From the IMG/VR virus record IMGVR_UViG_3300008217_000010, positions 1 through 57,970 of that record: a stretch of 57,970 nucleotides of DNA; one strand, written 5' to 3'. Positions 1 to 13,474 of this stretch are shown in pieces; within the stretch, counting starts at the first letter, position 1; each line of letters begins with the position of its first letter. Both the position numbers and the translations under genes were made by a program. The notes beneath the pieces were generated by a model that saw nothing but the letters and a program-made list of their open reading frames with translations, ran no database searches and had not been told where the DNA came from. The DNA comes from a virus.

Positions 1-119
1 ACGAAATCGGTTCAGCATAACGCATAGCCTACGCAATCCGTAGCTATCCCCTATCCATCCGTTCGATATCCGTTGTGTGATGACAGCAAAACGTTATGTC
101 AAACAGAACGGAAGTTCGC

Positions 120-143
120 TATTCTAGTGTTTGGTTAACAGCG
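120..143 (+). promoter_or_regulatory. -10-like hexamer plus GGTTAAC box
   Basis: A TATTCT hexamer (120-125) is followed after 7 nt by GGTTAACAGCG (133-143). The same arrangement recurs in front of several other transcription units in this window. No good -35 box is visible. It lies just before the ribosome binding site of the first gene, so the box probably falls at or just after the transcription start. Confidence 0.5.
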
Positions 144-159
144 ATTTTTGAAGGAGTTA

Positions 160-342
160 ATGGAAGATGTTTTAACGGATGAAGAACGTTCTAGGTACAT
201 TAAAGAATGGGCTACTCAAATCATAACTCTAGATGGAATGATTAAGAATGATGAACAGTTAGTAGACGCAATTCTTAGTATATCTGCTGACAGTTTGAAG
301 TTTGCAGTCGAACTACGGTTAGGTGAGAAGCCTGGATTTTAA
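160..342 (+). CDS. Hypothetical small acidic protein
   Basis: I do not recognise this 60-residue protein. The start is placed at the ATG at 160, three bases after AAGGAG; an in-frame TTG at 148 overlaps the ribosome binding site and is less likely. The product is acidic and probably helical, with no cysteine motif or membrane segment. It is the first gene after a GGTTAAC promoter box and is followed by more than 400 bases without a gene. Confidence 0.55.
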   Translation: MEDVLTDEERSRYIKEWATQIITLDGMIKNDEQLVDAILSISADSLKFAVELRLGEKPGF

Positions 343-558
343 TAGTAAGAATACTAATAACAGTCAATGGGTAAGGCCCATTAAGGTATCACGAAGAACG
401 ATAGTAGTTATCATAACATTATGTCAATCTGATTATACTTACTATTGTCATTTTCCACTATTCTTTTAGAAGAACTTCGCATAGAAATTTTTCGAGAGGG
501 AAGAACTTGACATAACATTCTTCGACTTGACATAACATAAGAAACTTACGAATGATTA
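343..558 (+). other. Non-coding region with TTGACATAAC repeats
   Basis: No credible gene is seen here. The sequence TTGACATAAC occurs twice in direct orientation (507-516 and 527-536, exactly 20 bp apart). Reverse-complement copies lie at 93-102 (exact) and 418-427 (one mismatch). They could be operator sites or -35-like elements for the promoter box that follows at 559-583. Confidence 0.45.
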
Positions 559-584
559 GATACTTTTGTGTTTGGTTAACAGCG
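559..584 (+). promoter_or_regulatory. -10-like hexamer plus GGTTAAC box
   Basis: GATACT (559-564) is followed after 9 nt by GGTTAACAGCG (574-584). The 13 bases from 571 to 583 repeat those at 130-142. Transcription from here would produce a leader of about 190 nt carrying the hammerhead ribozyme ahead of the gene at 772. Confidence 0.5.
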
Positions 585-698
585 GAATTTAAAGGTTAAG
601 CGCAAAAAAGAAAATAGCACTTGGTAATGAACAATGATTAAAGAAAGGTTGGTGTGCAATAACAGGAAAGCAAGAGAATGTGTGTTTCGCTTAGCCTG

Positions 699-757
699 AA
701 CAACAGTCTGTGAGTAAGCTCACACTGATGAGAGTTCTCCAACTCGAAACCGTTGTT
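699..757 (+). ncRNA. Hammerhead ribozyme, type III, in a 5' leader
   Basis: All parts of the hammerhead fold are present in order. Stem III 5' strand is 699-707 and the cleavage triplet GTC is 706-708. Stem I is a closed hairpin, TGTGAG/CTCACA with loop TAAG (709-724). The invariant CTGATGA is 725-731. Stem II is GAGTT/AACTC with loop CTCC (732-745). The invariant GAA is 746-748, and stem III 3' strand is 749-757. Stem III has eight pairs and one A-C mismatch. Predicted self-cleavage is after C708, leaving a 5'-hydroxyl RNA about 60 nt before the start codon at 772. The ribosome binding site begins three bases after stem III. Core and stems are read directly; activity is inferred. Confidence 0.88.
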
Positions 758-771
758 GGAAAAGGAGTAAC

Positions 772-999
772 ATGGCATTTCCTATCCGTTGCTGGTCATG
801 TAAGAAAGTAATAGAGGATACTAATCAGGCTTTTTCGAATCATAATCGGAGTAATAACGAGTTAAGTCTATGTAGGGGTTCAGATGATGGAGAAATCTTT
901 ACCGGAACAATCTTTCAACTACAGTGTTCATGCGGAGAAAATACTGTAGTTGTACTTGCTGTTCTACCTGAATGGCAAAGAGGAGTTACGATAGCATAA
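772..999 (+). CDS. Small zinc-ribbon-like protein
   Basis: This 75-residue protein has a CWSC pair near residue 8 and a CSCG pair near residue 54, the spacing of a zinc ribbon. I cannot assign a function. Its start follows AAAGGAG by four bases. The gene lies directly behind the hammerhead ribozyme, so its mRNA is probably trimmed by self-cleavage. A long hairpin follows the stop codon. Confidence 0.65.
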   Translation: MAFPIRCWSCKKVIEDTNQAFSNHNRSNNELSLCRGSDDGEIFTGTIFQLQCSCGENTVVVLAVLPEWQRGVTIA

Positions 1000-1006
1000 T
1001 TGACTT

Positions 1007-1049
1007 CTTACTCGACTAGATTAGGAACTTCTTAGTCTGGTCGGGTAAG
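1007..1049 (+). terminator. 14-bp stem-loop after gene 772
   Basis: Arms 1007-1020 and 1036-1049 pair over 14 bp with two G-U wobbles around a 15-nt loop. A second hairpin (1047-1052 with 1062-1067) overlaps the 3' arm, so the two are mutually exclusive. There is no U-tract, so this may be a processing or stabilising structure and not an intrinsic terminator. Confidence 0.5.
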
Positions 1050-1062
1050 TAGTGCATAATGC

Positions 1063-1085
1063 TACTTAAGTGTTTGGTTAACCGC
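1063..1085 (+). promoter_or_regulatory. GGTTAAC box before gene 1103
   Basis: GTGTTTGGTTAACCGC (1070-1085) repeats the boxes at 127 and 571, with GGTTAAC at 1076-1082. TACTTA (1063-1068) lies at the spacing where the other copies carry a -10-like hexamer but is a weak match. AAGGAGG follows a few bases later. Confidence 0.45.
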
Positions 1086-1102
1086 AAAAAAGGAGGTGAG
1101 AA

Positions 1103-1303
1103 ATGATACCCGTATTTGATGTGAATGTTATCAATAGAGAGAGTTCACATTTCAAAGGAAAGCCTATCCTGATTTCAGCATGGTTAGAAGAAACAGAATA
1201 CTCGACTATATTCATTGAAGTCGAAGATGATGTTACTGGACATCGTGCGATTTGGGAAAGAAGTAAGGCTAATCCAGAATCTTGGCATCTATGTGCAGAT
1301 TAA
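1103..1303 (+). CDS. Hypothetical protein
   Basis: I do not recognise this 66-residue protein. It starts at an ATG with a strong AAGGAGG site a few bases upstream and directly follows a GGTTAAC promoter box. It has alternating hydrophobic and charged stretches that look like a small beta-rich fold, with no cysteine pair or membrane segment. Confidence 0.6.
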   Translation: MIPVFDVNVINRESSHFKGKPILISAWLEETEYSTIFIEVEDDVTGHRAIWERSKANPESWHLCAD

Positions 1304-1315
1304 AGAGGTGTAGTG

Positions 1316-1447
1316 ATGAAAGTGGATGCATACTTTAATGGGACAAAAGTGAAGGTTGTTAGAACTGATACTTTAGTAGCATACATTAAGGTACATTGGA
1401 GAAAGGAACTGCTTAAGGTTAAGCGGCATCAATTAACATTCAAATAG
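1316..1447 (+). CDS. Hypothetical small basic protein
   Basis: This is a 43-residue reading frame from ATG at 1316 to TAG at 1447, preceded by a GAGG site. It is basic, with several Lys-Val and Arg-rich stretches. Its tight fit between neighbours supports a real gene. No function can be given. Confidence 0.5.
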   Translation: MKVDAYFNGTKVKVVRTDTLVAYIKVHWRKELLKVKRHQLTFK

Positions 1448-1457
1448 AGGAGGAGTT

Positions 1458-1538
1458 ATGGTTATTCGTGATGAAGCCAGATTTGAAAGAATCAGACGTA
1501 AGCATTTCCGTCGTATGAATCCACATCTTATAAGATGA
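1458..1538 (+). CDS. Hypothetical 26-residue arginine-rich peptide
   Basis: ATG at 1458 is preceded by AGGAGGAG, one of the best ribosome binding sites in the area, and the frame ends with TGA at 1538. The peptide is very rich in arginine. The binding site is the main reason to call it. Confidence 0.4.
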   Translation: MVIRDEARFERIRRKHFRRMNPHLIR

Positions 1539-1561
1539 ATTGTCCTGACTAGGAGAAAAGA

Positions 1562-2212
1562 ATGGTTGAGAATCATCCAGAGATTCCTCAACTTGAACAA
1601 GATGAAGCTATTGAATCACAAGTAGTATTCGATAACGGATTCTGGTACGAGTTAACGGGGTCTCAATATAAATTAAAGAAATTCTTGACTAAACCTAACT
1701 TGCGTGGAATCACAGTTAGAGATTCTAGGGAGCGTGGTTACATCTTTGTTAAGAACTCAGATGAACAAGGATGGTTAGGAAAGGAGGTGGCAGACTGCAA
1801 TTTAAGGTACAAGAAACTGGATAATAGAGACCAACCAGTTGTCTTGTTAGCGGCATGTGGAGTAAAGGTAACGGTTCTCTTGACACATGAACGAGCATGT
1901 AATTCATGCAAGTCAGTTAAGGGACTAGCACCTAGAAGTCCACGTAATGCTAAGAATACACTTAGCAATAACAAGAATAGCTGTGAAGAAAAGACCGTGT
2001 TCTCGTTACCTGGCTTACCAGATATGAGTATGAATGGAGTACTGTCTTTAGCTAGACAGAGAGTAGATGAAACACTCGCTCTATCCGTTAAATATCAAGA
2101 TTTGGTAACGGCAATCGAAGGGATGCAGGCAATGGAGGAAGAGTTCAAGACTATAACTGAGTCCAGAGAACAACACATAGCCGCCATTGAGCATTTCATG
2201 AAGGAAAAGTAA
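1562..2212 (+). CDS. Hypothetical protein with C-terminal coiled coil
   Basis: This 216-residue protein is not recognised. The N-terminal 90 residues look like a mixed alpha/beta domain. A CNSC pair lies near residue 113, followed by a low-complexity, asparagine-rich linker. The last 60 residues are charged and strongly helical, so likely a coiled coil. The start has AGGAG seven bases upstream. Confidence 0.65.
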   Translation: MVENHPEIPQLEQDEAIESQVVFDNGFWYELTGSQYKLKKFLTKPNLRGITVRDSRERGYIFVKNSDEQGWLGKEVADCNLRYKKLDNRDQPVVLLAACGVKVTVLLTHERACNSCKSVKGLAPRSPRNAKNTLSNNKNSCEEKTVFSLPGLPDMSMNGVLSLARQRVDETLALSVKYQDLVTAIEGMQAMEEEFKTITESREQHIAAIEHFMKEK

Positions 2213-2231
2213 TGATTAAAGGACAGTTGAG

Positions 2232-2259
2232 AGTCCCCATTTGAAGTAGAGTGGGGACT
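2232..2259 (+). terminator. AGTCCCCA/TGGGGACT hairpin
   Basis: An exact 8-bp inverted repeat with a 12-nt loop lies 20 bases after the stop of the preceding gene and is followed by TTTAA. It is a weak candidate intrinsic terminator. The same AGTCCCCA arm reappears around the strong promoter at 9.4 kb. Confidence 0.5.
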
Positions 2260-2325
2260 TTAACTCGTTTGTTAAGCGGTAGTCTATCAAGTACCGTTTA
2301 TAGATTAGTTAAAGGAGGTGAGATT

Positions 2326-2499
2326 ATGCCTAAAGCATGGGTGTCCATTAACCCATCCAATGAAGATGCTCCAATAACATTAAGCACAAGTGCTGGTTCG
2401 GAGCAGTTTACTGCGGATGAAGCAGGTAGGTTAAGGGACTTGCTAGACGAAGCGGTCAACTACCAACCCCAAGAAGAAATACCAATAGGAGATGTGTAG
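2326..2499 (+). CDS. Hypothetical acidic protein
   Basis: The 57-residue protein starts at ATG 2326 because AAAGGAGGTGAG lies just upstream; an in-frame GTG at 2251 sits inside the hairpin and is rejected. The sequence is acidic and unrecognised. The next gene starts one base after its TAG stop. Confidence 0.6.
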   Translation: MPKAWVSINPSNEDAPITLSTSAGSEQFTADEAGRLRDLLDEAVNYQPQEEIPIGDV

Positions 2500-2811
2500 A
2501 TGTGGAATTGGTTAGGAGTGCTGTTAAAGCGCAAAGGATACTATACAGACAAAGAAAGATATTGTGAGGACTGTGGAGCAGACTTAATTGGGAATGACCC
2601 ACACACTCCAGATTGTCAAATCACAATAGAGGAGGTAGCAGATAACAGATATACTCCATCATGTTTCAAGTGTTCTGAAATGTGGTTTGAGTATTACAGA
2701 ACAGATAATACGCAAGGAGATAGAAATAAAGTCTATTCTCGTATCCGTCAACATCAAGCTGGCTCAGTCTGTACTCGTGATGTAACGGATGCTAGAATCA
2801 AGGTTGCGTAA
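2500..2811 (+). CDS. Zinc-finger-like hypothetical protein
   Basis: This 103-residue protein has a CEDCG pair near residue 23, a second pair CFKC near residue 56 and further single cysteines, suggesting one or two zinc sites. It starts immediately after the preceding stop and overlaps the next gene by one base, so it is translated as part of an operon. No specific family is recognised. Confidence 0.6.
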   Translation: MWNWLGVLLKRKGYYTDKERYCEDCGADLIGNDPHTPDCQITIEEVADNRYTPSCFKCSEMWFEYYRTDNTQGDRNKVYSRIRQHQAGSVCTRDVTDARIKVA

Positions 2812-3038
2812 TGTCTGAAGATGGATTACCAGCACCAAAGAAATTCAAATACGCACAATGGAATAAGAAAGATACCTTGACAACAGCAGAGGATATAGTT
2901 AAGGCGAGGAAGTCTATTGAAAGAACGTTAGGAATCCGTTGTCGAACAAGACAAGATGTAGAACGTATCCTAAGTCAGTACCTAGGAAGTGATTCCACTG
3001 GTACTATGAGGAAATATGTCAAACCAAGACCAAGGTAG
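2811..3038 (+). CDS. Hypothetical basic protein
   Basis: A 75-residue lysine- and arginine-rich protein of unknown function. It begins in a TAATG overlap with the preceding gene, and its 3' end overlaps the start of the next gene by 23 bases. A helical stretch in the middle resembles a small nucleic-acid-binding helix, but no family is recognised. Confidence 0.55.
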   Translation: MSEDGLPAPKKFKYAQWNKKDTLTTAEDIVKARKSIERTLGIRCRTRQDVERILSQYLGSDSTGTMRKYVKPRPR

Positions 3039-3420
3039 GCCAACGGTCTATTTAAAGGAGATATCATCTACGGATGATATGTTTAAAGGGCAAGGGTTAA
3101 CCGTTTATAGCGGTGAAGATTTTAGCTCTTTAAGGATAACTCAATTCATCCCTCAAGAGGATGATGTTGTTCTTTGTGGTGGATGTAATGTTAATCTCTA
3201 TCCAGAGAAAGGTACATTAGTATTTGATTCAATTGAAAAAGTTGCATTAAATACTCCATACGATATCTTCCATAAAGAGTGTATCGGAAACATAATTAAC
3301 GATTGTGAGGTGATAAGAATAGAAACAAGACTATGCGAAAGGAAGGATTGTGGTAAAGAACTTCCTTATGGTTGGTACGCTATCTATTGCTCAAACGAAT
3401 GTGCATTTCAAGACGCATAG
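3016..3420 (+). CDS. Zinc-binding hypothetical protein
   Basis: This 134-residue protein carries CGGC near residue 55, a single Cys near 95 and a C-terminal cluster of six cysteines in which CERKDCGKEL is followed by YCSNECA. That arrangement is typical of a treble-clef or zinc-ribbon fold. The start has GAGG four bases upstream. Function unknown. Confidence 0.6.
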   Translation: MSNQDQGRPTVYLKEISSTDDMFKGQGLTVYSGEDFSSLRITQFIPQEDDVVLCGGCNVNLYPEKGTLVFDSIEKVALNTPYDIFHKECIGNIINDCEVIRIETRLCERKDCGKELPYGWYAIYCSNECAFQDA

Positions 3421-3429
3421 GAGGAAGAA

Positions 3430-3624
3430 ATGGCATATGAAATGAAGCCTGTCGTAATGACTCAAAATTTAAAGAAAGCTATGAGTGCAAATAAATCTGT
3501 AACTTCATCTGAAGCTGCGGTTGAGCGTGCTCACCGTAAGTTAAATGAAGCTATAGGTATTCTTACTCTAGATGAGTGTACTTGGTACGGTTATCTTACT
3601 ACCCAAAAGAGTAGACTCACTTGA
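3430..3624 (+). CDS. Hypothetical helical protein
   Basis: A 64-residue, mostly helical protein with a start preceded by AGGAGGAAG. No domain is recognised. It is the last gene before the hairpin and promoter box at 3.65-3.71 kb. Confidence 0.55.
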   Translation: MAYEMKPVVMTQNLKKAMSANKSVTSSEAAVERAHRKLNEAIGILTLDECTWYGYLTTQKSRLT

Positions 3625-3646
3625 CATTAAAGGAGATTTAATGTAG
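3625..3646 (+). other. Start-stop mini ORF inside a hairpin
   Basis: AAAGGAG (3629-3635) is followed five bases later by ATG and immediately by TAG (3641-3646). The flanking CATTAAA and TTTAATG form a 7-bp inverted repeat that places the ribosome binding site in the loop. It is an optimally spaced initiation site that encodes only methionine. Confidence 0.45.
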
Positions 3647-3649
3647 AAT

Positions 3650-3682
3650 AGTGCGACTTGATTCTGAGAGTCGTGTCGCACT
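3650..3682 (+). terminator. AGTGCGAC/GTCGCACT hairpin
   Basis: An 8-bp perfect stem (3650-3657 with 3675-3682) closes a 17-nt loop and is followed by TCTCTATATT. It sits between two gene blocks, right before a promoter box, and may end upstream transcription. Confidence 0.45.
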
Positions 3683-3686
3683 TCTC

Positions 3687-3711
3687 TATATTAACGCTAT
3701 GGTTAACTGCG
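3687..3711 (+). promoter_or_regulatory. TATATT plus GGTTAAC box
   Basis: TATATT (3687-3692) is followed after 8 nt by GGTTAACTGCG (3701-3711). This copy has the best -10 sequence of the box family. It precedes the AAAAGGAGG site of the gene at 3736. Confidence 0.5.
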
Positions 3712-3735
3712 GATTTATATGGAAAAGGAGGGCGC

Positions 3736-3858
3736 ATGGTATATGATAAAGTCAGAGTCCAGAAACTAATTGACTCATTAATAGGTGATAAATGGAAGGA
3801 AGAACGCAATGTTATTGCTCAAGTAAGAAACCAAGAATTGAATTACCTAGAGCTCTAG
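3736..3858 (+). CDS. Hypothetical 40-residue protein
   Basis: The ATG at 3736 is chosen because AAAAGGAGG lies just upstream; an in-frame upstream start at 3658 falls inside the hairpin and promoter. The peptide is charged and helical. It overlaps the next frame by 67 bases, so one of the two may be spurious. Confidence 0.45.
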   Translation: MVYDKVRVQKLIDSLIGDKWKEERNVIAQVRNQELNYLEL

Positions 3859-3968
3859 TCGTAATGATGGAAACTGTCCAACATCATTATATAGAAGAAC
3901 CATCTAAACTTAAACAATATAAAGATATATTTGAAGAAATATCTCAAATTAGAGAGGTAGCAGAATGA
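3792..3968 (+). CDS. Hypothetical 58-residue protein
   Basis: The frame runs from ATG 3792 (AGGTG five bases upstream) to TGA 3968, which overlaps the next start as ATGA. A shorter version could begin at ATG 3864. The C-terminal half is acidic and helical. It is unrecognised. The ATGA junction with the next gene supports translation of this frame. Confidence 0.45.
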   Translation: MEGRTQCYCSSKKPRIELPRALVVMMETVQHHYIEEPSKLKQYKDIFEEISQIREVAE

Positions 3969-4204
3969 GTCAATGGACTCATATAGCAGGTATAATACGA
4001 GTAGACTCTATTGGGATGAATGTAGGTAGAGATACTGAACAAGTTCTCAATATGATGATACAAGGATTAGCAGATATACCAACTGGAAGTGAAGGACCAC
4101 TTCATTATAGAGTATTAAATCAGCTTCAAGGAAATGCTCTATCTTGGGGTAATATTATCTTTTGGGATGATTTAAGAGACTTTGGTAGTGAGGATGATTT
4201 ATAA
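3965..4204 (+). CDS. Hypothetical protein
   Basis: A 79-residue unrecognised protein with an ATGA overlap to the gene before it. It ends with a run of acidic residues and a TAA stop. The codons after the stop, in the same frame, continue to look coding; see the next entry. Confidence 0.55.
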   Translation: MSQWTHIAGIIRVDSIGMNVGRDTEQVLNMMIQGLADIPTGSEGPLHYRVLNQLQGNALSWGNIIFWDDLRDFGSEDDL

Positions 4205-4345
4205 AAAGTAAAATATTGGTGGGAATACTTGCATCAAGAATTCAGATGGACCGAGATTTGCTATGCTCGACAGAGTGTACTTGAAATTCAAATTGAAGGT
4301 CAAGATGAACTTATAGTTTTGCACAATCCATCTATAGAGGAATAA
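4194..4345 (+). pseudogene. Small gene lacking a start in frame (probable A-run error)
   Basis: From about 4205 to 4345 the sequence encodes a tryptophan-rich stretch beginning KYWWEYLHQEF and ending at TAA 4343-4345, but the frame has no usable start codon. If the AAAAA run at 4203-4207 had one more A, the ATG at 4194 would read straight into it. It would then overlap the previous stop in the way common in this genome. Function unknown. Confidence 0.45.
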
Positions 4346-4485
4346 TGCTTAATTGGTTCGTGTTAGGACTTAGTATCTTATCTATGTTAATAGCGTTATA
4401 CTCTGTTTATAAATTACGGAGAGCATTGCAAACACTTAAACGTATGCAAAGAACATATCATTGGAGGTCATACGAAGAAGAATGA
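4345..4485 (+). CDS. Small membrane protein
   Basis: A 46-residue protein with one hydrophobic segment (about residues 2-22) followed by a basic, helical tail. This is typical of a single-pass inner-membrane protein with the tail in the cytoplasm. It begins in a TAATG overlap and ends in an ATGA overlap. It could be a holin-like or membrane-anchored accessory protein; nothing decides this. Confidence 0.55.
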   Translation: MLNWFVLGLSILSMLIALYSVYKLRRALQTLKRMQRTYHWRSYEEE

Positions 4486-4697
4486 CAACAGCAACTCTAG
4501 TTACTGAAAGACAGACTACAGACTATATATCTGAAAGGAGGTGCGAAGGATGTCCGCGATGTCAAGACCCTAATGCTGGATTCTGTAAGTTAAGCCATCC
4601 TAAATGGAAGAACTTACATCCTATATGTCGAAGGTGTGGGCATTGTGTGTTAAGAGGAAGCCATGCTGATAATACAGATGACTTAAAGGAGACGTAA
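4482..4697 (+). CDS. Cysteine-rich zinc protein
   Basis: The 71-residue protein starts at ATG 4482 in an ATGA overlap. It has CEGCPRC, a further Cys near residue 33, and CRRCGHC, so two zinc-binding pairs. No family is recognised. The next gene follows within two bases. Confidence 0.6.
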   Translation: MTTATLVTERQTTDYISERRCEGCPRCQDPNAGFCKLSHPKWKNLHPICRRCGHCVLRGSHADNTDDLKET

Positions 4698-4698
4698 A

Positions 4699-4803
4699 AT
4701 GGACTTTAAATCTTTTATACTTGGAATAGTTATTGGATTTATTCTTGGATTTATTGCCTTTAGTGTAGCTTGGATAGCTATTATTGAAACTTTTAAATTA
4801 TAA
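4699..4803 (+). CDS. 34-residue membrane peptide
   Basis: Almost the whole peptide is one hydrophobic helix of about 25 residues with glycine spacing. The start follows AAAGGAGACG. It is a second tiny membrane protein within 400 bases of the one at 4345. Its role is unknown. Confidence 0.5.
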   Translation: MDFKSFILGIVIGFILGFIAFSVAWIAIIETFKL

Positions 4804-4812
4804 GGAGAAAGA

Positions 4813-5316
4813 ATGGGACAATACTTTAAACATCTACGTGCTACTCCTTGGATTCCAAGCTTTGAGTGGATTGAAACTTCTGATGAAGCAGCAGATGTCA
4901 TCAATAAACCACATGAAGATTATCCAAATAAAATTCCTTTAACCAAATTAGCAATAGAGACTATACCTCCTTCAATTACGATATCTAACTTACTCCTTAC
5001 ACATATGAGAATATTTGTAGGTGAGGACTTTGCTGGATTGCTTCGTAATAAAAATGTAAGGGTAGGCAATCATACTCCTCCAAAATGGCAAGATGTAGTT
5101 AATCATATGGTTGAACTTCAAATGATTCATCGCCCTACATTAGAGCAAATAGGAGACGTTAGCCTTCAGTTAATAGAGAATTTGAAGGATTGGTATGAAG
5201 ACTTTGAAACCATCCATCCATTTGAAGATGGAAACGGTAGAGTTGGAGGTGTAACAATAGCAATCTATTCTCATACTTGGTATCCAGAAAAAGGATATTT
5301 AGTACCATTACAATAA
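4813..5316 (+). CDS. Fic/DOC family protein
   Basis: The 167-residue protein contains the Fic active-site motif HPFEDGNGRVGG near its C-terminus. Upstream lies the family pattern in which an LLRNKNVRVG segment precedes a PPKW stretch. Fic proteins usually transfer AMP, or sometimes another nucleotide or phosphate, from a cofactor to a hydroxyl of a target protein. The catalytic His, the phosphate-binding loop and the GNGR arginine are all present. No inhibitory antitoxin motif is obvious. The target is unknown; phage Fic proteins may modify host factors. The family call is firm and the activity is inferred. Confidence 0.85.
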   Translation: MGQYFKHLRATPWIPSFEWIETSDEAADVINKPHEDYPNKIPLTKLAIETIPPSITISNLLLTHMRIFVGEDFAGLLRNKNVRVGNHTPPKWQDVVNHMVELQMIHRPTLEQIGDVSLQLIENLKDWYEDFETIHPFEDGNGRVGGVTIAIYSHTWYPEKGYLVPLQ

Positions 5317-5324
5317 GGAGTGAT

Positions 5325-5630
5325 ATGCCAGTACCAGAGATAAATCCAAGTGTTTACTTAACTAAAGGTTGGTGTCAAGGAGCATTTGAGAAGATAATAG
5401 ATGGAAAAAGGTTTTATTGTTTCTTAGGTGCTGTTAACCAATCTTATATAGGAATTAGAAACTTTGAAGAAGGAAAAACACAATTTGACTTTAAGAGGAC
5501 TGCCAATGAAATATTAATTGAAAGAGGATTTCAAGACCCGTTAGTAACAGTTTGGCAAGATGCCATAGAAAGAACACAAGAAGAAGTAGTAGAACTTGCT
5601 TTAGAAATCGAAGAGAGATTAGGATTATGA
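5325..5630 (+). CDS. DUF6197-like protein
   Basis: A 101-residue protein starting at ATG 5325, with AAGGAG four bases upstream. It has the order GWCQGAF, then CFLGAVNQ, then a WQDAIERTQEEVVELA stretch. This matches the pattern I associate with DUF6197, small proteins of unknown function common in phages and actinobacteria. It overlaps the next gene by four bases. Confidence 0.55.
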   Translation: MPVPEINPSVYLTKGWCQGAFEKIIDGKRFYCFLGAVNQSYIGIRNFEEGKTQFDFKRTANEILIERGFQDPLVTVWQDAIERTQEEVVELALEIEERLGL

Positions 5631-6036
5631 GTATTTGGGGACTAGAGGAGATTGAAGGGATGGACTTAGGTAAATACAAGATGGCTACTATCTATCATAC
5701 CAAAGATGATGTGGACTTGATTCTAACGAGGATGGAAAGGCTTTTATTACAATCAAGACCACACAGAAAGAAGTAGAGAAGGTAGGTGAAACACTTAAAT
5801 ACTACTCAGATAGAATGGCACTATCCAAGTTTGCTTGGATATCTACTAAAGAAAGAGGTCATAAAGATAGAAATACTAAAAGTCTAGGAGATACATGGAA
5901 TATAGCTCATAGAAATAAGCAAATTGCTACAGCAAAGTTATATGGTACTACACTTGTAGTAATATCCTTTCCAGAGGATGAAAGTTTAAGGCATTGCTAC
6001 TTAAATCATGCCTACTTGAATTTCCAGAGGGCATAG
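5627..6036 (+). pseudogene. Hypothetical gene split by a frameshift
   Basis: The first frame runs from ATG 5627 to TAG 5776, but its last third is poor. A second frame, open from about 5712 and ending at 6036, encodes a fluent protein containing NEDGKAFITIKTT and later ATAKLYGTTLVVISFPEDE. Adding one base near 5708-5712 joins them into a single protein of about 136 residues. I do not recognise the product. A programmed frameshift is possible, but no slippery heptamer is seen. Confidence 0.5.
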
Positions 6037-6062
6037 AGTTTTCAATTTACTAAGGATTACTA

Positions 6063-6269
6063 ATGACTCCTAAACAAAGAAAAACTTTGATGATAAGGTG
6101 CGGAGAGTGGTTCAGAAGAACATATTCAACTCAAGTTGAAGCAATGGATATCGCTGATGAAGTTAATTCTATCTTAGAAAAGGAATACAGAGGAACTTAT
6201 TGTAGTGTTCAATCCACTCCAATGGGATTTATTCTATTACTTAGTAATTCTGAATTTGGTAAGGTATAG
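6063..6269 (+). CDS. Hypothetical protein
   Basis: A 68-residue unrecognised protein with a helical N-terminal half and a beta-rich C-terminal half. It starts at ATG 6063, with no strong binding site and a TAATG-like context. It lies between the broken gene before it and a 31-residue gene. Confidence 0.5.
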   Translation: MTPKQRKTLMIRCGEWFRRTYSTQVEAMDIADEVNSILEKEYRGTYCSVQSTPMGFILLLSNSEFGKV

Positions 6270-6270
6270 A

Positions 6271-6366
6271 ATGAAAAAGGATGTTGTGATGAAGGACAGA
6301 CTTCATGCGTCTGTTAATTCGCAAGGCAACTTGATATTAAATTCGAGTTGTAAATATGGAAGGTGA
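6271..6366 (+). CDS. Hypothetical 31-residue peptide
   Basis: The short frame from ATG 6271 to TGA 6366 overlaps the start of the RuvB-like gene by 11 bases. Its position suggests translational coupling to that gene. No function can be given. Confidence 0.35.
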   Translation: MKKDVVMKDRLHASVNSQGNLILNSSCKYGR

Positions 6367-7210
6367 AGATAATTCTTATCAAGTAGTAGGCAACGCTGAC
6401 TTTATTCAGATAGTCAACTTGATGAAGGATGCAAAACCTTTTCCTCATGTGTTAATATGGGGACCAAGTGGAGCAGGTAAGACAACAATAGGTAAGTACA
6501 TATCGAACGTAGTAGGAAGTAATGTAACAAGTTATTATGGTCCTGACTTAGATAGAATGACTTTATCTATGATTCTTCAATCACAATGGGAGAATGATGT
6601 ACTTATTATTGATGAGATTCATGGATTAAGTAAGGGATTACTTGAATCTATTTACCAACCACTAGAAGAATTTCAATTTAAGGGAATGAGTCTAACTCCC
6701 TTTACTATGATTGGGATAACTACAGACTTAGATTCCCTTCCAGATGCTCTACAAAGAAGATTTAGACTTGTTTATAGAGTTCAACTCTACGATACACAAG
6801 AGTTAATGGATGTATGCTTCGGTCTTATCAAGAAAGAATGGTTCGATGATGGGATTGAAGCTGTGGCAGAAATGTCAAGAGGAAGTCCTGGTATAGTAAG
6901 GAATCATCTCCAACTTATCGAATCTATGTTTGAGATAGAAAAGGTAGATTTTGAGACAGTTCAACATTATCAAAGACTCAAGCATGTAAACGATATTGGA
7001 TTAGAAGAAATAGACTTAGAATATCTTCGTGTGTTAAGAGCATATGATGTTTTATCTTTATCTACTCTATCTTCAATATTAGTTGAACGAGAGAAGGCAA
7101 TCGAAGGAGGTATAGAACCATTCTTATTTCGATTAGGTCTTGTAGTTAAGACATCTAAAGGTAGACAGCTTACAATTAAAGGACAAAACTATCTAAGAGA
7201 TTTAGACTAA
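6356..7210 (+). CDS. RuvB-like AAA+ ATPase
   Basis: This 284-residue protein has Walker A GPSGAGKT (residues 36-43), Walker B LIIDEIHG (83-90), a sensor-1 region with ITTD (121-124), an arginine-finger region ALQRRF (131-136) and a C-terminal winged-helix segment with IEPFLFRLGLV. This is the layout of the Holliday-junction motor RuvB. RuvB normally works with RuvA and RuvC to drive branch migration, and neither is visible in this window. It may use a different loader or work with the phage recombination genes at 26-29 kb. It overlaps the next gene by one base. Confidence 0.8.
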   Translation: MEGEDNSYQVVGNADFIQIVNLMKDAKPFPHVLIWGPSGAGKTTIGKYISNVVGSNVTSYYGPDLDRMTLSMILQSQWENDVLIIDEIHGLSKGLLESIYQPLEEFQFKGMSLTPFTMIGITTDLDSLPDALQRRFRLVYRVQLYDTQELMDVCFGLIKKEWFDDGIEAVAEMSRGSPGIVRNHLQLIESMFEIEKVDFETVQHYQRLKHVNDIGLEEIDLEYLRVLRAYDVLSLSTLSSILVEREKAIEGGIEPFLFRLGLVVKTSKGRQLTIKGQNYLRDLD

Positions 7211-7440
7211 TGGTTAAGCCTATTACAGAAGAAGACCAATTAGCACATGATACGGCTAAAGCTATACTTGAAGGTACTATTCCAGATTATACTATAAGAG
7301 GATTTGTGATGTATAGAATAAATCTCTCTGTAGCTATTTTCGATATAGAGGATGAAGAATGGTGGAAATATATAGGTCACGAAGCAACTATTCAAGATGC
7401 TCTTGATAGAATATATAGAGATCATTTAGATAGGAGGTAG
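7210..7440 (+). CDS. Hypothetical acidic protein
   Basis: A 76-residue unrecognised protein translated in a TAATG overlap with the RuvB-like gene. It contains a WWKYIG stretch and an acidic C-terminus. Coupling suggests co-expression with the ATPase. Confidence 0.5.
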   Translation: MVKPITEEDQLAHDTAKAILEGTIPDYTIRGFVMYRINLSVAIFDIEDEEWWKYIGHEATIQDALDRIYRDHLDRR

Positions 7441-7441
7441 T

Positions 7442-7624
7442 GTGACTCCAAATGAAGTATCTCCAATGGTAGGTTCTGATTTTTACTTTCGTGCTAAGGT
7501 TCTTTCGGTTAAATATGTGAAGGAGCAAATCGTATTACGTCTTGAGGAATATAATACGAAGTGTAAATTCACTCTTAAATTCTCGCAACAGATGTTGCCT
7601 GGAGTAGATGATGGAGATTCCTAA
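7442..7624 (+). CDS. Hypothetical protein, GTG start
   Basis: A 60-residue protein starting at GTG 7442, with TAGGAGGTAG just upstream. It reads as a small beta-strand protein. It overlaps the following gene by 17 bases. Function unknown. Confidence 0.5.
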   Translation: MTPNEVSPMVGSDFYFRAKVLSVKYVKEQIVLRLEEYNTKCKFTLKFSQQMLPGVDDGDS

Positions 7625-7838
7625 TTATATACTTAGAAATTTAGAACTTCCTTGTCCACCAGAGACAAATGGAGTTCACTACTGGATATTAGATGAAGCA
7701 TCAAAAGGAGGAACAAAGAATAACAGTAGTGGTGAGTGTTGCAAATGTCACATCACAAAGGAGGAGTTCTTCGAGAACAGTATCATAAAAGACTCCAAGG
7801 AAAACTTACAACTTAGATTTAACGAGAAAAGAGATTAA
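7608..7838 (+). CDS. Small zinc protein
   Basis: The 76-residue protein has a CCKCH motif near residue 44 and a Cys near residue 16, consistent with a small zinc site. Two consecutive ATG codons (7608 and 7611) could start it. No family is recognised. Confidence 0.5.
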   Translation: MMEIPNYILRNLELPCPPETNGVHYWILDEASKGGTKNNSSGECCKCHITKEEFFENSIIKDSKENLQLRFNEKRD

Positions 7839-7856
7839 TTTTTTGAAGTTGGGTTT

Positions 7857-7875
7857 TTGTGTTTAGTTAATAGCG
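7857..7875 (+). promoter_or_regulatory. Variant GGTTAAC box before the Ycf46-like gene
   Basis: GTGTTTAGTTAATAGCG (7859-7875) differs from the 127-143 copy at only three positions. No -10-like hexamer is seen upstream, so this copy may be a 5'-leader element. AAAGGAG and a TTG start follow. Confidence 0.4.
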
Positions 7876-7892
7876 AAAAAAGGAGTAACAAA

Positions 7893-9407
7893 TTGGAAAT
7901 TAAAGACCAAATAAAAGAAATGGTAAACTCTGGCTTTTCTGTGTTCTATGTATACACAGAAGATGAGGTTAGTGTCGAGAGACAACTAACTATGATGGCA
8001 GAAGAAAGAGAGGCAGGTATAGGTAGGTGGACTGTCTTAGGTGATAATCCTTTAGATGATTTTCTAGGGGCGGAGTTCCCAAATAACTTCTTTGTGATTT
8101 GCATCAACCCTCATTTGAATCTTGATTCTCCTGGAGTAATGCAGACCATAAAAGACCAAGCAGATAAATGGAAGGCAACGGACATTCATGTATTCTTGTT
8201 ATGCAATGATAAGAAAATACCACCAGAGGTTAATCGTAACCTCACATATATAGAGTGGGGACTTCCTGATAAAGATGAGCTTGGTGATAAGCTAGAGTTT
8301 GTTAGAGAATCTGCTCTAGATGAGCTACCTGACCTTCCAGTTTTTGACAATGGAGAAAAAACTGCTCTTGTTAAAGCAGCATTGGGGTTAACAAGTCAGC
8401 AGGCTGAAGATGCTTTTGCTCTTTCCTTGATACAAAATCAAGCGTTTGTGCCAAATGTCGTAACTAGAATTAAAGCAAACGAATATCTAAAAGCTGGATT
8501 GATGGAGCTTGAGGAACCTAAACCTTTTGAATCATTCAAGGGATACACAGAACTCCAAGAATATATGGTTCAATCTAAGTCAGCTTTCTATCAAGAGTCT
8601 AAGTATGGCTTATCTCCTCCTAAAGGCATACTGTTAACTGGAGTTCCAGGGGTAGGAAAGACTCTTGCTTCACAAGCAATCGCATCTATGTTCGGACTAA
8701 TGCTACTAAAGGTAGACCTTGGAAAGCTATTCGGAGAACTGGTAGGACAAACAGAGTCTAAAACCAGACAACTAATTGCCATAGCAGAAAGAATGGCACC
8801 TATCGTATTAAGATTCGATGAAATAGAGAAACAAATGGGTGGTATGGGAGTTAGCTCAGGTGACAGCGGAGTAAGTTCCAGAATCCTTGCTTCTCTATTA
8901 ACATGGATGCAAGAACGTACTGCTCCAGTCTATACAATAATGACTGCCAATGATGTAAGCAGATTACGACCAGAGATGCTCAGAAAAGGTAGGATAGATG
9001 AGATATTCTTTCTTGACCTGCCTGACAAACAAGAACGGTCAGATATATTTGAGTATCATCTTGAGCTTAGGGTTCCAGAGGTCAACTGGAGTGGATATGT
9101 TAACGACCTCAATGAAGCCCATAACAAGACTAAAGGATGGTCAGGTGCAGAGATTGAGCAAGTAGTAATACAGACTCTGAGACGTGCTGAACGAAGTGAT
9201 ATACATATTTCAGAGGATTTACAGTTCTTTATATTAGACCTTATAAATGAAATAGATAAGACCGTACCGTTATCCGTTATACGAAGGGAGGATATAGATG
9301 CAATAAGAAAATGGGCTGTAGATAATAATGCTCGATTAGCATCTAAGAATGAAATCATCGAGAAAGCCCAAATAGAGACTCGAAGAAAATTATCAATATC
9401 AAAATAA
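7893..9407 (+). CDS. Ycf46-like AAA+ ATPase
   Basis: The 504-residue protein starts at TTG 7893, preceded by AAAGGAG; an upstream in-frame GTG at 7857 lies in the box. The N-terminal half is an unfamiliar alpha/beta domain that fits the Ycf46 N-terminal region. The AAA+ core has Walker A GVPGVGKT (about residue 250), KLFGELVGQTESK, Walker B LRFDEIEK (about 310) and the second-region-of-homology stretch RPEMLRKGRIDE. The KLFG-LVG-(E/Q)(T/S)E stretch is the hallmark of Ycf46, conserved in cyanobacteria and other bacteria and of uncertain role. Small Ycf35-like and DUF2997-like genes at 11.9-12.6 kb are its usual companions. Confidence 0.75.
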   Translation: MEIKDQIKEMVNSGFSVFYVYTEDEVSVERQLTMMAEEREAGIGRWTVLGDNPLDDFLGAEFPNNFFVICINPHLNLDSPGVMQTIKDQADKWKATDIHVFLLCNDKKIPPEVNRNLTYIEWGLPDKDELGDKLEFVRESALDELPDLPVFDNGEKTALVKAALGLTSQQAEDAFALSLIQNQAFVPNVVTRIKANEYLKAGLMELEEPKPFESFKGYTELQEYMVQSKSAFYQESKYGLSPPKGILLTGVPGVGKTLASQAIASMFGLMLLKVDLGKLFGELVGQTESKTRQLIAIAERMAPIVLRFDEIEKQMGGMGVSSGDSGVSSRILASLLTWMQERTAPVYTIMTANDVSRLRPEMLRKGRIDEIFFLDLPDKQERSDIFEYHLELRVPEVNWSGYVNDLNEAHNKTKGWSGAEIEQVVIQTLRRAERSDIHISEDLQFFILDLINEIDKTVPLSVIRREDIDAIRKWAVDNNARLASKNEIIEKAQIETRRKLSISK

Positions 9408-9476: not shown

Positions 9477-9719
9477 ATGCAAGAGTTCTTTATATTCAGT
9501 TGGATAGATAATAATGTGACCTTGATAGAAGCTTATCCAGTACATAAAGGATTATCACGTCAATACTTTATAAACCATTGTATAAGTTGTACAGATATCA
9601 ATGGTTGGGCTTTAGTCTCTTCACCATCTAGGAATCAAGCTAAGAAATCTGCTTATATCAATTGGATTAACTCAACAGGAAAAGGATGGAACCGTTATTA
9701 TGACAACAAGCTCAGATGA
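9477..9719 (+). CDS. Hypothetical protein
   Basis: An 80-residue protein whose start at ATG 9477 is preceded by GGGAGGG. An in-frame GTG at 9453 would begin inside the operator-like repeat. The C-terminal half, containing RNQAKKSAYINW, is basic and helical. It is the first gene of the strong 9.4-kb promoter. Function unknown. Confidence 0.6.
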   Translation: MQEFFIFSWIDNNVTLIEAYPVHKGLSRQYFINHCISCTDINGWALVSSPSRNQAKKSAYINWINSTGKGWNRYYDNKLR

Positions 9720-10071
9720 GCCAGATGTTGATTACGGATACACTCACTTAAGGGAAGAGTATCAAAAGTTAGAGGCTGACTCTGAGTTTGCTGAATTTCT
9801 CGTGTTGTTAACAGGAACTTATGATGAACCCGTGGACAGAACATTCGAGGATATTCAAAAGTTCAGAACAATAGCTACAATGGTATATACTAATAAGGAG
9901 ATAGAGTTTATAAGACATCTAGAGCCTGGACAAATCTGGACTACGGTAAATATGGGCAAGACCTTTATAGGTGTTGTTCAAAGAAAAGTTAACCGTACTG
10001 TATATCTAAGAGATAACTTAGGTAATGTATACCATGCAACAGCAGACCAATTCAGAGAGAGGTTACAATAA
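9700..10071 (+). CDS. Hypothetical acidic protein
   Basis: A 123-residue protein overlapping the preceding gene by 20 bases. The C-terminal half looks like a small SH3-like beta barrel: a PGQIW turn, then FIGVVQRK, then VYLRDNLGNVYH. The frame continues to look coding after its TAA stop, but as a new protein start; see next entry. Confidence 0.55.
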   Translation: MTTSSDEPDVDYGYTHLREEYQKLEADSEFAEFLVLLTGTYDEPVDRTFEDIQKFRTIATMVYTNKEIEFIRHLEPGQIWTTVNMGKTFIGVVQRKVNRTVYLRDNLGNVYHATADQFRERLQ

Positions 10072-10382
10072 ATAGCTACATTAGAAGATATCACGATATG
10101 TGATTCTTGCAAAGCAAGGTTATCAAATAAACATCTTCCTGGAGACTTGAGTTTTGAGGTGGACTCTGACAAATCCCTTTGGTGGAGATATAACTCTGGA
10201 ATTGGTAATGTCTTTGGTAGTATTGGAATGTTCGCTATCCATAATACTTGCTTAGATACTATGCGTGACAGGTTAAGGTCTGAGGGAAGAATGGAGCCGT
10301 TAGTCAGTATTTATTAGAGCTAGAAAGGTTAATTGTTCTAGGAGAAACTAAATCAGATTTGAGGAAAATGAGAATACAGTGA
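10072..10382 (+). pseudogene. Zinc-motif gene with ATA start and a frameshift
   Basis: Directly after the previous stop a frame opens as ATA GCT ACA TTA. If the ATA were ATG, the protein would begin MATLEDITICDSC with a clear CxxC pair. GAGAGG lies nine bases upstream. The frame stops at TAG 10315-10317, but one extra T near 10311 would carry it on in a fluent second segment to TGA 10380-10382, a GTGA overlap with the next gene. The product would be about 103 residues. Function unknown. The non-ATG start may be real or a sequence error. Confidence 0.45.
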
Positions 10383-10552
10383 TCACAAGTACCTGGCGTA
10401 AGAAACCACCGCATCCATCGACTAAGAAAAGACATGGTAATACTTTGTTGAAGGTTGACCCAAAACGAAAACGCAAGTTCTTAACACAAGAACAACTACG
10501 TGCCAAGCGACATCGAAAGAAGTTAAAAAGGAATAGAAATAAGAATGAATGA
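10379..10552 (+). CDS. Very basic small protein, GTG start
   Basis: A 57-residue protein from GTG 10379 to TGA 10552, with GAGGAAAATGAGAA upstream. About 40 percent of its residues are Lys or Arg, including KRKRK, so it probably binds nucleic acid. It overlaps both neighbours by a few bases. Confidence 0.5.
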   Translation: MITSTWRKKPPHPSTKKRHGNTLLKVDPKRKRKFLTQEQLRAKRHRKKLKRNRNKNE

Positions 10553-10685
10553 TGTAGAAACACATCCAAAGTATTGGGATTGTGAATGCGAGAATGATTA
10601 CATTCACGAGAAAGGAGTTCAAGATTATTGCTCTATTTGCAGAGTAATAGTAATGAGCAACCTGACAGCCGAGTCAATGAGTTAA
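10545..10685 (+). CDS. Small zinc-finger protein
   Basis: A 46-residue protein with WDCEC near residue 13 and CSIC near residue 29, separated by 15 residues, as in a compact zinc finger. It overlaps the preceding basic protein's 3' end. Specific function unknown. Confidence 0.5.
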   Translation: MNDVETHPKYWDCECENDYIHEKGVQDYCSICRVIVMSNLTAESMS

Positions 10686-10719
10686 TCGAAAAAGGTATCT
10701 TATTAAGAGAGGATGAATA

Positions 10720-11661
10720 ATGGTTGAGACAACACACGCACCAGTTAGGGACAAAGAAAAGAGTATCTTTGTTGATGGGGTGTTATTTGATATTGACATC
10801 CATTGGTGGAAAGGTTGGACTAAGTTAGAGCTTGAGGATATAGATAAAGAGGAAGGTGAACTGCCTGCTATCTTTAAGCTTGGAACTAAACGGATACTTA
10901 ACCCAGAGGCGTTCAAAGACTTCTCTGTTATAGAGTCCAGGGCAAGGACGTTGGTTGACGACCTGTGCTTCCCTTTTATGATATCTACTGTGAGGTTTGT
11001 TCCCTTTGCCACACTACCTCAGTTAGTAGAAGAGTTAACTAAGCTACAGAAAGCATTTTACGCTTTCGTAGAACAGTTTGTCTTTTACTATGATGATAAC
11101 AAGTTGTCGTTTATGAATAGATATCCTAAGTACGCTCTTAAACTGAATAAAAAATATCCAGACACAATGGAAATTAGAGGTAAGTTCTACTTCAGTTGGA
11201 AGTTATTTGAAATGTCCATGCCAAAGGAAATAAAAGCTGAATTCTTATCTGACTCAGAAAGAGAAAGGCTACAGAAACTCTTTACTGAAAGTCAAGATAA
11301 GGTTAACAGCCAATTAGAGGGTTGGGTTGACCGCGTTGGTATGGCAATGAGAAAGGAAATTGGTTTAGTATGCAAGAACATGAACGACTCATTAGAGAAA
11401 GGAAAAGTGATACGTGAATCAACTCTGGAAAGGACTCGTGAGACTATCAAACGCTTACGTTCCATGAATTTTATTGGTGACCCTCAAGTAGAGGACATGC
11501 TCTCTGATTTAGAACGGAACGTTCCTGGTAACTTTGATAGAGATAATGCTTTAGTGATGGCTCCATTTAAGGGAACACTCCAGGCTATCATGGCAGAGGC
11601 AGGAGACCTTACAGATATAACAACTTCAACTGGAGAATACAAACGAAAGTTTAGGTTATAA
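10720..11661 (+). CDS. Conserved-looking protein, possibly DUF3150
   Basis: A 313-residue, mostly alpha-helical protein. Its central part (about 130-290) looks like a long helical bundle. The placement of an ESRARTLVDDL segment and the VPF turn before a long helical region reminds me of DUF3150, a phage and plasmid family of unknown function. I hold that only weakly. It sits between the Ycf46-like and Ycf35-like genes and may belong to the same functional group. Confidence 0.6.
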   Translation: MVETTHAPVRDKEKSIFVDGVLFDIDIHWWKGWTKLELEDIDKEEGELPAIFKLGTKRILNPEAFKDFSVIESRARTLVDDLCFPFMISTVRFVPFATLPQLVEELTKLQKAFYAFVEQFVFYYDDNKLSFMNRYPKYALKLNKKYPDTMEIRGKFYFSWKLFEMSMPKEIKAEFLSDSERERLQKLFTESQDKVNSQLEGWVDRVGMAMRKEIGLVCKNMNDSLEKGKVIRESTLERTRETIKRLRSMNFIGDPQVEDMLSDLERNVPGNFDRDNALVMAPFKGTLQAIMAEAGDLTDITTSTGEYKRKFRL

Positions 11662-11664
11662 GTT

Positions 11665-11874
11665 ATGATTGACCAAGTAATAAGCGATATCGACAAAGAG
11701 ATATTAGAGCAGTTATGTAACGATTGGACTCCACAAGAAATTACAGAGATAGTCAATCGTAGTTATGATAATATAGTGTATAGACTTAAGCTCTTACAAT
11801 TAAAATTCGACGTAGAAACAAACGTTGGTTTAGTTTGCAAGTTAGTTAAATTAGAATTATTGGAGGTTAAGTAA
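11665..11874 (+). CDS. Small helix-turn-helix protein
   Basis: The 69-residue protein has an acidic N-terminal helix and a segment from about residue 20 to 48 containing DWTPQEITEIVNRSYDNIVY. That resembles the LuxR-type helix-turn-helix, in which a TxxEI helix is followed by a recognition helix. It may regulate transcription. It overlaps the next gene by one base. Confidence 0.55.
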   Translation: MIDQVISDIDKEILEQLCNDWTPQEITEIVNRSYDNIVYRLKLLQLKFDVETNVGLVCKLVKLELLEVK

Positions 11875-12176
11875 TGCCTTGTTGGATGCGAGGAGAACTA
11901 AGGTTAACAGACTTTGAGAAACTACAAGCAGAAGCTAATAAGCTAGGGTTAGAACTGTTGAAACAAAGCCCTGAAATTATCACCATATTAAAGAATGGTG
12001 TCGCTGTGGCTACTGCTACTGAAGCAGAGATAATGAAAGGTGCTAATCAATATTTTAAGGAGACTGTTAAGAACTACACGATTCAACAAGTCAAGGTTGC
12101 TGCTATGAGGAATGGTTGGAAGTTTGAGCAGGTCAAAGCAGAAGATGGAAAAATCAAATTGAGGGTGAGTGAATAA
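11874..12176 (+). CDS. Ycf35/DUF1257-like small protein
   Basis: A 100-residue protein beginning MPCW. The C-terminal QYFKETVKN stretch, followed by a GWKFEQV motif and a final beta strand, resembles the end of the Ycf35/DUF1257 family. The proximity of the DUF2997-like gene at 12385 and the Ycf46-like ATPase supports the call, since the three are commonly neighbours. Sequence similarity alone is modest. TAATG overlap on both sides. Confidence 0.5.
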   Translation: MPCWMRGELRLTDFEKLQAEANKLGLELLKQSPEIITILKNGVAVATATEAEIMKGANQYFKETVKNYTIQQVKVAAMRNGWKFEQVKAEDGKIKLRVSE

Positions 12177-12385
12177 TGCCATTCTTAGTTTTAATACAAG
12201 ATGCTCCAGATGATACTAAATGGTCTAAGGAGAGTATAGTTCTTTCTACATTAACAACCCCTGAACAAGTTCAAGCAGAATGGGGAGAGAAAGGAAAGAA
12301 CATCATTATTTGGAGTCTACCAAACTTAGGTTTCTTGGATGAGTGGCCTGTTGAGTTACCAGTAGACGAGGAGTTAGACCGCTAA
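12176..12385 (+). CDS. Hypothetical acidic protein
   Basis: A 69-residue unrecognised protein lying between the Ycf35-like and DUF2997-like genes with one-base overlaps at each end, so it is probably part of the same complex or pathway. It contains a LPNLGFLDEWP stretch and ends in acidic residues. Confidence 0.5.
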   Translation: MPFLVLIQDAPDDTKWSKESIVLSTLTTPEQVQAEWGEKGKNIIIWSLPNLGFLDEWPVELPVDEELDR

Positions 12386-12576
12386 TGGCTAAAGTAATTG
12401 AAATCACAATCGGAGATAATGGGAGTATTGAGGTACAAGGTTCTGGTCTTGGCCCCAATGAAAGGATTGAGGACGTAGCTAAGTTCCTTCTAACGAACTT
12501 AGGCGATGTTACAGAAACCGGACACAAACATCAACACACTACTAAGGAAGATATTACGATACAGAATATAGGTTAA
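12385..12576 (+). CDS. DUF2997-like protein
   Basis: A 63-residue protein whose order is a short beta strand, a GxIEVxGxG turn, a helix ending in LGDV, then a polar tail with a lysine and histidines. It matches the small DUF2997 family, which typically neighbours DUF1257 and Ycf46 genes. The role is unknown. It ends the operon; a promoter region follows. Confidence 0.6.
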   Translation: MAKVIEITIGDNGSIEVQGSGLGPNERIEDVAKFLLTNLGDVTETGHKHQHTTKEDITIQNIG

Positions 12577-12794
12577 CCTCTATAGATGGATTGTCGAATA
12601 ATACCGATTATTCACCACAAAACGCTTGACGGTTTGTAGGGAGCTATGTTATTCTATAGATGTTAGGTTAACAGCACGCGAAAATAGAATCCAACATCAT
12701 CCAACACTTTAAGTTGATGGGAGGAGAAGTGAAATAAAAGGCAACACTATTCAGCTAATTCTGGAAGGACCAAATTAAGATTAAAGGAAAAATC
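12577..12794 (+). promoter_or_regulatory. Promoter region with TTGACG/TATTCT and GGTTAAC box
   Basis: TTGACG (12626-12631) and TATTCT (12650-12655) are separated by 18 bp, and GGTTAACAGC follows at 12666-12675. This is the only box copy with both a credible -35 and -10, so it links the box to transcription initiation. A leader of about 130 nt with no gene leads to the start at 12795. Confidence 0.6.
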
Positions 12795-13370: not shown

Positions 13371-13377
13371 GAGTAAA

Positions 13378-13411
13378 AAGGGTCGGTGTTGCCTACCTGA
13401 CCCTTCGTTTT
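13378..13411 (+). terminator. Intrinsic terminator
   Basis: AAGGGTC (13378-13384) pairs with GACCCTT (13399-13405), extended by an inner GGT/ACC pair, and is followed by TTCGTTTT. It begins eight bases after the stop of the 12795 gene. A second G/C-rich hairpin (13412-13418 with 13433-13439) follows at once. Confidence 0.75.
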
Positions 13412-13437
13412 GGGGGAGTGGACGCATGACTGCTCCC

Positions 13438-13466
13438 CCTTAAATTTAGCCTGAGAACTGTACAAT
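13438..13466 (+). promoter_or_regulatory. Candidate promoter before gene 13475
   Basis: TACAAT (13461-13466) in the context ACTGTACAAT resembles the ACTGTATAAT of the strong promoter at 9.4 kb. The -35 region is weak. The next start codon lies only nine bases after the hexamer, which would make a nearly leaderless message. Confidence 0.35.
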
Positions 13467-13474
13467 GAGGGGAA

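Follow-up and report, generated by a model that had tools for sequence, protein, structure and literature searches.

A type III hammerhead ribozyme before the ribosome binding site of a small gene in an uncultured tailed virus, and the placement of related ribozymes in phages

Introduction

A hammerhead ribozyme is found 13 nt before an early helicase gene of the haloviruses HF1 and HF2, and the 5′ end of the transcript was mapped to no more than 3 nt from the cleavage site (PMC3088659). HF2 (AF222060), whose host is a haloarchaeon, has its ribozyme annotated at 10292-10359 and a helicase that begins at 10371, leaving a gap of 11-13 nt; the element has been described as a core variant and is matched by the Rfam type II model RF02276. 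Prophage hammerheads flank genes and have been suggested to cut long phage transcripts down to mRNAs the length of an operon or a gene (Perreault et al. 2011, PMC3088659). Another core variant, from PaP3, was reported to be active (PMC3088659). Outside natural genomes, RiboJ combines the hammerhead of sTRSV with a 23-nt hairpin and, placed between promoter and ribosome binding site (RBS), removes the leader (PMC8794103, PMC6206723); in E. coli it raises protein 2-10-fold and transcript about 2-fold (PMC6206723).

The function of prokaryotic and phage hammerheads has been called an open question (PMC6155905, PMC3088659). We found no published census of hammerhead positions in phages in the literature searched, with most subscription papers outside its coverage. 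Here we describe a type III hammerhead in the genome of an uncultured tailed virus from IMG/VR (record IMGVR_UViG_3300008217_000010), of which a stretch of 57,970 nt was analysed (the window), and compare its position with those of other phage hammerheads.

Results and discussion

The first-pass annotation had placed a type III hammerhead in the 5′ leader of a small gene at 772, a reading supported by the core, the stems and the 14 nt that separate stem III from the ATG (Table 1). All the parts that it listed (GTC, CTGATGA, GAA and three stems) were confirmed at 699-757 with correct coordinates, as was the type III topology, in which stems I and II are closed by loops and stem III is open, and AAAGGAG does begin three bases past stem III. 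The type III core is complete: C3 U4 G5 A6 N7 G8 A9, G12 A13 A14, the A15.1-U16.1 pair and H17 (C708). The earlier description lacked a mismatch in stem III, A705.C751. According to Perreault et al. (PMC3088659), a type III core must have no mispair immediately beside it; the pairs flanking the core are intact here (G732-C745 as N10.1-N11.1, U709-A724 as N1.1-N2.1 and U707-A749 as A15.1-U16.1), and the mismatch is the third pair of stem III, two pairs away from the core. Complementarity between loops I and II amounts to 2 bp (AG/CU), with no clear contact seen. We rejected such complementarity as a marker of hammerheads, as it does not exceed that of shuffled loops across the census described below. 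Nor did we retain the possibility that the hairpin of stem I is a terminator on the minus strand, since the ribozyme fully explains stem I and the T-run is weak.

Table 1 Features of the ribozyme, its leader and the downstream gene in window coordinates.
Feature	Position	Strand	Evidence or remark
Putative promoter/leader element, TTTGGTTAACAGC motif and conserved upstream TAnT-n-GTG	556..595	+	Sister copies at 115-154 and 1058-1097; promoter role inferred
Whole motif, type III hammerhead ribozyme	699..757	+	RF00008 35.6 bits; phage-trained model R1 45.4 bits, E 1.3e-10
Stem III 5′ strand AACAACAGU	699..707	+	Partner 749-757; 8 pairs and the A705.C751 mismatch
GUC cleavage triplet	706..708	+	Sequence; predicted cut C708/U709 by established hammerhead chemistry
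Stem I hairpin	709..724	+	6 bp perfect, 709-714/719-724, loop UAAG
CUGAUGA core	725..731	+	Sequence
Stem II hairpin	732..745	+	5 bp perfect, 732-736/741-745, loop CUCC
Competing/post-cleavage hairpin UCCAAC...GUUGGA	738..760	+	ViennaRNA; uses stem II 3′ strand and stem III 3′ strand
GAA core and A15.1	746..749	+	Sequence; GAA 746-748, A749 = A15.1
Stem III 3′ strand GUUGUUGG	749..757	+	Predicted to remain with the mRNA once cleaved
Shine-Dalgarno AAGGAG	762..767	+	Sequence; beyond stem III
Downstream gene, 75-aa CxxC protein	772..999	+	Weak likeness to RNA polymerase subunit N over the first 26 residues

Run in E-value mode, the Rfam model RF00008 aligned end to end over 701-755 with 35.6 bits, which corresponds to E 4.6e-6 for 501 nt against all of Rfam, E 5.3e-4 for the whole window against all Rfam families and E 1.3e-7 for RF00008 alone in this genome. 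At the gathering cut-off, Rfam returned no match in the window, the threshold of RF00008 being 48.5 bits. The Infernal search named as a check by the first-pass annotation was positive as to the match, which falls on the 699-757 region at E 1.3e-7, and negative as to the curated cut-off. RF00008 matches all of 20 other phage hammerhead records (E <= 0.01), and a single one of them passes 48.5 bits. Because the remaining 19 fail in the same way, missing the threshold is a property of the cut-off, which serves curation and does not define the fold, and threshold-based annotation of phages under-reports type III hammerheads. The records tested are L016, L017, L024 and 17 further loci, and the gathering score misses 19 of these 20.

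A covariance model built from 48 phage hammerheads of the census described below, with the window element left out (R1), scored the latter at 45.4 bits (E 1.3e-10), and the next-best site in the window reached 11.7 bits. Typical phage copies score 49-64 bits with R1, so the window copy is lower, yet it lies above several members of the search pattern. When a structural definition of type III was applied to both strands of 400 dinucleotide shuffles of the window, no comparable element appeared; the real window holds one, which is the only hammerhead copy in this genome. We regard the presence of the ribozyme with the described structure at 699-757 as virtually certain. Judged by its sequence, it is a genuine type III hammerhead, very probably catalytic, and RNA of 699-757 would very likely cleave in vitro.

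To place the element among its relatives in kind, IMG/VR was scanned with the pattern GTCTG-N-CACTGATGAG-N-CGAAAC, which returned at least 119 stretches; among the matches listed, 76 distinct elements including that of the window pair in all three stems and form the census. Placement was scored as the distance separating the end of stem III from the closest start codon downstream that has a Shine-Dalgarno sequence and opens an ORF of 45 codons or more. By this measure, 51 of 70 scorable phage elements (window excluded; among the matches listed) lie 4-30 nt before an RBS and start codon, a count to be read with the facts that the pattern fixes several bases, that some elements come from related phages and that genes were called by a simple rule. 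The background for placement within 30 nt on the same contigs is 8.4% of intergenic positions and 5.6% of all positions. R1 found 16 further elements outside the search pattern, and 11 of these are RBS-adjacent too. The window element thus has the placement that is usual for type III hammerheads in phages.

A same-strand upstream ORF stops no more than 100 nt before the ribozyme in 42 of the 76 (among the matches listed), so that the majority lie between cistrons, immediately ahead of the following RBS, and the closeness of the upstream gene end fits the cutting of polycistronic RNA into gene units. The window copy differs in having a longer gap, of about 358 nt, to the stop of its upstream gene. 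A shared function of the downstream genes was considered and rejected: at the census loci these are diverse and mostly of unknown function, and include three ArdC-type anti-restriction genes, ATPases, PAPS reductase and HTH regulators. Covariation in the census-based alignment (A1) is biased because its members were picked for pairing. Several phage loci carry two to six copies. At L034, six hammerhead matches occur over 9599-13523 (minus strand), several directly before genes; in the copies at 12231-12270 and 11870-11918 the GTC, stem I and CTGATGA are kept and stem II/GAAA is lost, as if these copies were decaying or used another 3′ half.

The same pattern run on cellular genomes (257 billion bases) gave 39 stretches, of which 16 are well formed and only two of those are leader-adjacent. 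As an arrangement, RBS-adjacent type III hammerheads that are widespread and mostly phage-specific are well supported. A large share of the few well-formed cellular type III hammerheads lies in contigs of Patescibacteria (candidate phyla): L157 and L160 are Candidatus Magasanikbacteria, and L142, L163 and L167 are other Patescibacteria-type MAGs. Two of the Patescibacteria contigs have multiple copies, and none of these hammerheads is directly beside a start codon.

The idea in the first-pass annotation that a hammerhead serving as a 5′-UTR processing element before an early gene would be new has to be given up. The HF1/HF2 case was described in 2011 (PMC3088659), and its HF2 layout makes an early-gene leader hammerhead in a phage not new; RBS-adjacent placement is, moreover, what most of the phage census displays. 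The elements of HF1/HF2 and the window share a position in a phage gene leader just before the start codon. They differ in that the window element is of type III with a canonical core and has a different downstream gene. Type III hammerheads known from phages and prophages (Perreault et al. 2011 and our census) share with it the core, three stems and RBS-adjacent 5′ placement; the window copy stands apart from them by the A.C mismatch of its stem III, a loop I of 4 nt and a strong competing fold. PaP3 also has an intergenic phage hammerhead (AY078382, 44070-44125, minus strand; 23.7 bits with R1), but its triplet is GUA and not GUC in the alignment, and some 95 nt separate it from the next annotated gene downstream. 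Among working analogues RiboJ comes closest: its type III hammerhead removes the upstream leader, as proposed below for the window element, and a hairpin stands before the RBS in both. However, RiboJ was engineered from a plant satellite RNA and its hairpin follows the ribozyme, whereas in the window the hairpin overlaps it.

The downstream 75-aa protein begins MAFPIRCWSC, with a weak similarity to the N-terminus of RNA polymerase subunit N/Rpb10 as found in archaea and eukaryotes (Pfam E 1e-4, under the cut-off). Searches of IMG/VR and INPHARED gave no relatives, and an AlphaFold model (pLDDT 46) was uninformative. We did not adopt an archaeal host from this likeness, which covers 26 residues below cut-off; the RuvB and the strong Shine-Dalgarno sequences point to a bacterial host. 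Other genes encode a capsid-protease fusion, NrdJ, RuvB-like, DinG-like, Dcd and Fic proteins. HF2 encodes RtcB; among the window ORFs of at least 150 aa, judged by length, there is no RtcB-sized unassigned ORF. The large terminase is split over 54192-56469 (minus strand) into an ATPase gene (56469-55615) and a nuclease gene (55121-54192); two small cysteine-rich genes lie in between.

A near-identical contig, L003, links the right end of the window to its left end through about 1.13 kb (L003 538-1670); the map is therefore circular or permuted, at about 59 kb, and the window record lacks the 1.13-kb piece. L003 ends at window position 525, before the ribozyme. Searches with the 75-aa protein and with the ribozyme sequence itself found no relatives spanning the leader, two near-identical contigs stopping short of it, and a nucleotide search of 1-8000 against phages gave no match. 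Terminase and portal queries returned only two near-identical fragments, and the capsid query added a distant virus, L126 (25% identity); no hammerhead was matched anywhere in its record.

Upstream of the ribozyme, GGTTAACNGC occurs in ten copies in the window against 0.3 expected, including those at 133, 574, 1076, 3701, 12666, 57616 and 57783 (plus strand), and several stand just before genes. Three leader copies share TAnT-n-GTGTTTGGTTAACNGC as part of a longer, 40-nt element. This element is possibly a phage promoter or leader signal, in which case the removed leader would be about 125 nt long.

We propose, at a probability of about 0.7, that the hammerhead is a constitutive mRNA 5′-end processing element and a natural counterpart of the synthetic insulator RiboJ. 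Transcription would start near the TTTGGTTAACAGC element, at about 570-583 or upstream, and read through 699-757. The hammerhead would fold on emergence and, by established chemistry, cut between C708 and U709, leaving a 2′,3′-cyclic phosphate on the upstream leader and a 5′-OH on the mRNA. The mRNA would then start with stem I and a hairpin directly before a free AAGGAG and the ATG at 772, and the 75-aa protein would be expressed through a leader whose structure does not vary with the upstream sequence, as the RiboJ precedent suggests. The 772 gene may be early, since it stands where the rightward replication arm begins, close to the divergence point. For the processing role speak the complete core with its three stems, detected by two covariance models and not found in shuffles, the RBS-adjacent layout that the majority of phage type III hammerheads share, the often nearby end of the upstream gene, the mapped 5′ end of HF1/HF2 and the effects of RiboJ; against it stand the mismatch, the complementarity of only 2 bp between the loops, searches that found no relative covering the leader, and a rival fold stronger by 5.5 kcal/mol.

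In that fold, predicted with ViennaRNA, CCAAC (739-743) pairs with GUUGG (755-759) and GAAC with GUUC, so that stems II and III are destroyed. The 5.5 kcal/mol apply to the 67-nt core region and to secondary-structure energy only, and the gap narrows to 2.2 kcal/mol when the flanks (660-800) are included. Across the census, the gap between hammerhead and minimum fold has a median of 0.15 kcal/mol and is within 3 kcal/mol in 70 of 76 elements; that of the window is the second-largest of the 76, with only L043 worse, and the third stem III pair is broken in the window copy alone (all among the matches listed). The hairpin at 738-760 could form in the cleaved mRNA as well, just before the Shine-Dalgarno sequence, part of which is paired in the folds predicted for precursor and product alike. 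The RBS described above as free is, in these models, free of the hammerhead itself and not of every fold. Given the stronger rival fold, the window copy may be slow, impaired or switchable, and the odd fold could mean that the ribozyme is slow, that it acts as a switch, or that folding renders its cleavage irreversible.

One alternative, which we consider unlikely, is that the ribozyme is bistable and regulated, with a protein, a ribosome or transcription speed selecting the fold and so controlling cleavage and expression of the 75-aa gene. In this model, GUUGUUGG of the stem III 3′ strand would pair with the upstream AACAAC in the active state and with CCAAC of the loop and stem II in the inactive one. 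The rival fold, better by 5.2-5.5 kcal/mol, breaks exactly the helices required for catalysis, and the probability of stem III in the equilibrium ensemble is near 0. A 21-codon ORF at 634-699 also stops at the first base of stem III, so that a ribosome could mask this stem; the ORF ends with TGA at 697-699 and is without a clear Shine-Dalgarno sequence. However, ViennaRNA omits tertiary energy and co-transcriptional order, the gap is smaller with the flanks included, there is no ligand-binding domain, and no relatives were found that would show the alternative pairing to be conserved. A wider reading, in which phages commonly cut their RNA into single-gene messages with fixed 5′-OH leaders by RBS-adjacent hammerheads that annotation at the Rfam cut-off misses, and in which the window copy is in addition a gated switch whose stem III 3′ strand moves between the ribozyme and a hairpin ahead of the RBS, we consider unlikely as a whole, its switch half being only compatible with the modelled folding energies.

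It is improbable that the hammerhead was active in an ancestor, has become slow owing to misfolding and the A.C mismatch, and now hardly affects expression. The mismatched third pair, unique in the census, the second-largest misfolding gap (both among the matches listed) and the single copy in this genome would agree with such decay, but the core positions and stems I and II are all intact, which decay would not keep, and the R1 score exceeds those of several pattern members, though it falls under the typical range. That 699-757 is a chance sequence resembling a hammerhead is very unlikely, as the one point in its favour, a score under the curated Rfam cut-off, is shared by 19 of 20 other phage records, and both the E-values of RF00008 and R1 and the 400 shuffles stand against it.

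Conclusions

The window case, read as a constitutive 5′-end processing element, is by itself one added example, and a sound one, of a little-studied but already reported arrangement, and the census outweighs this single element in interest. It leads to a general and testable statement about these viruses, namely that phage type III hammerheads mostly sit right before RBSs, as processors of mRNA 5′ ends.
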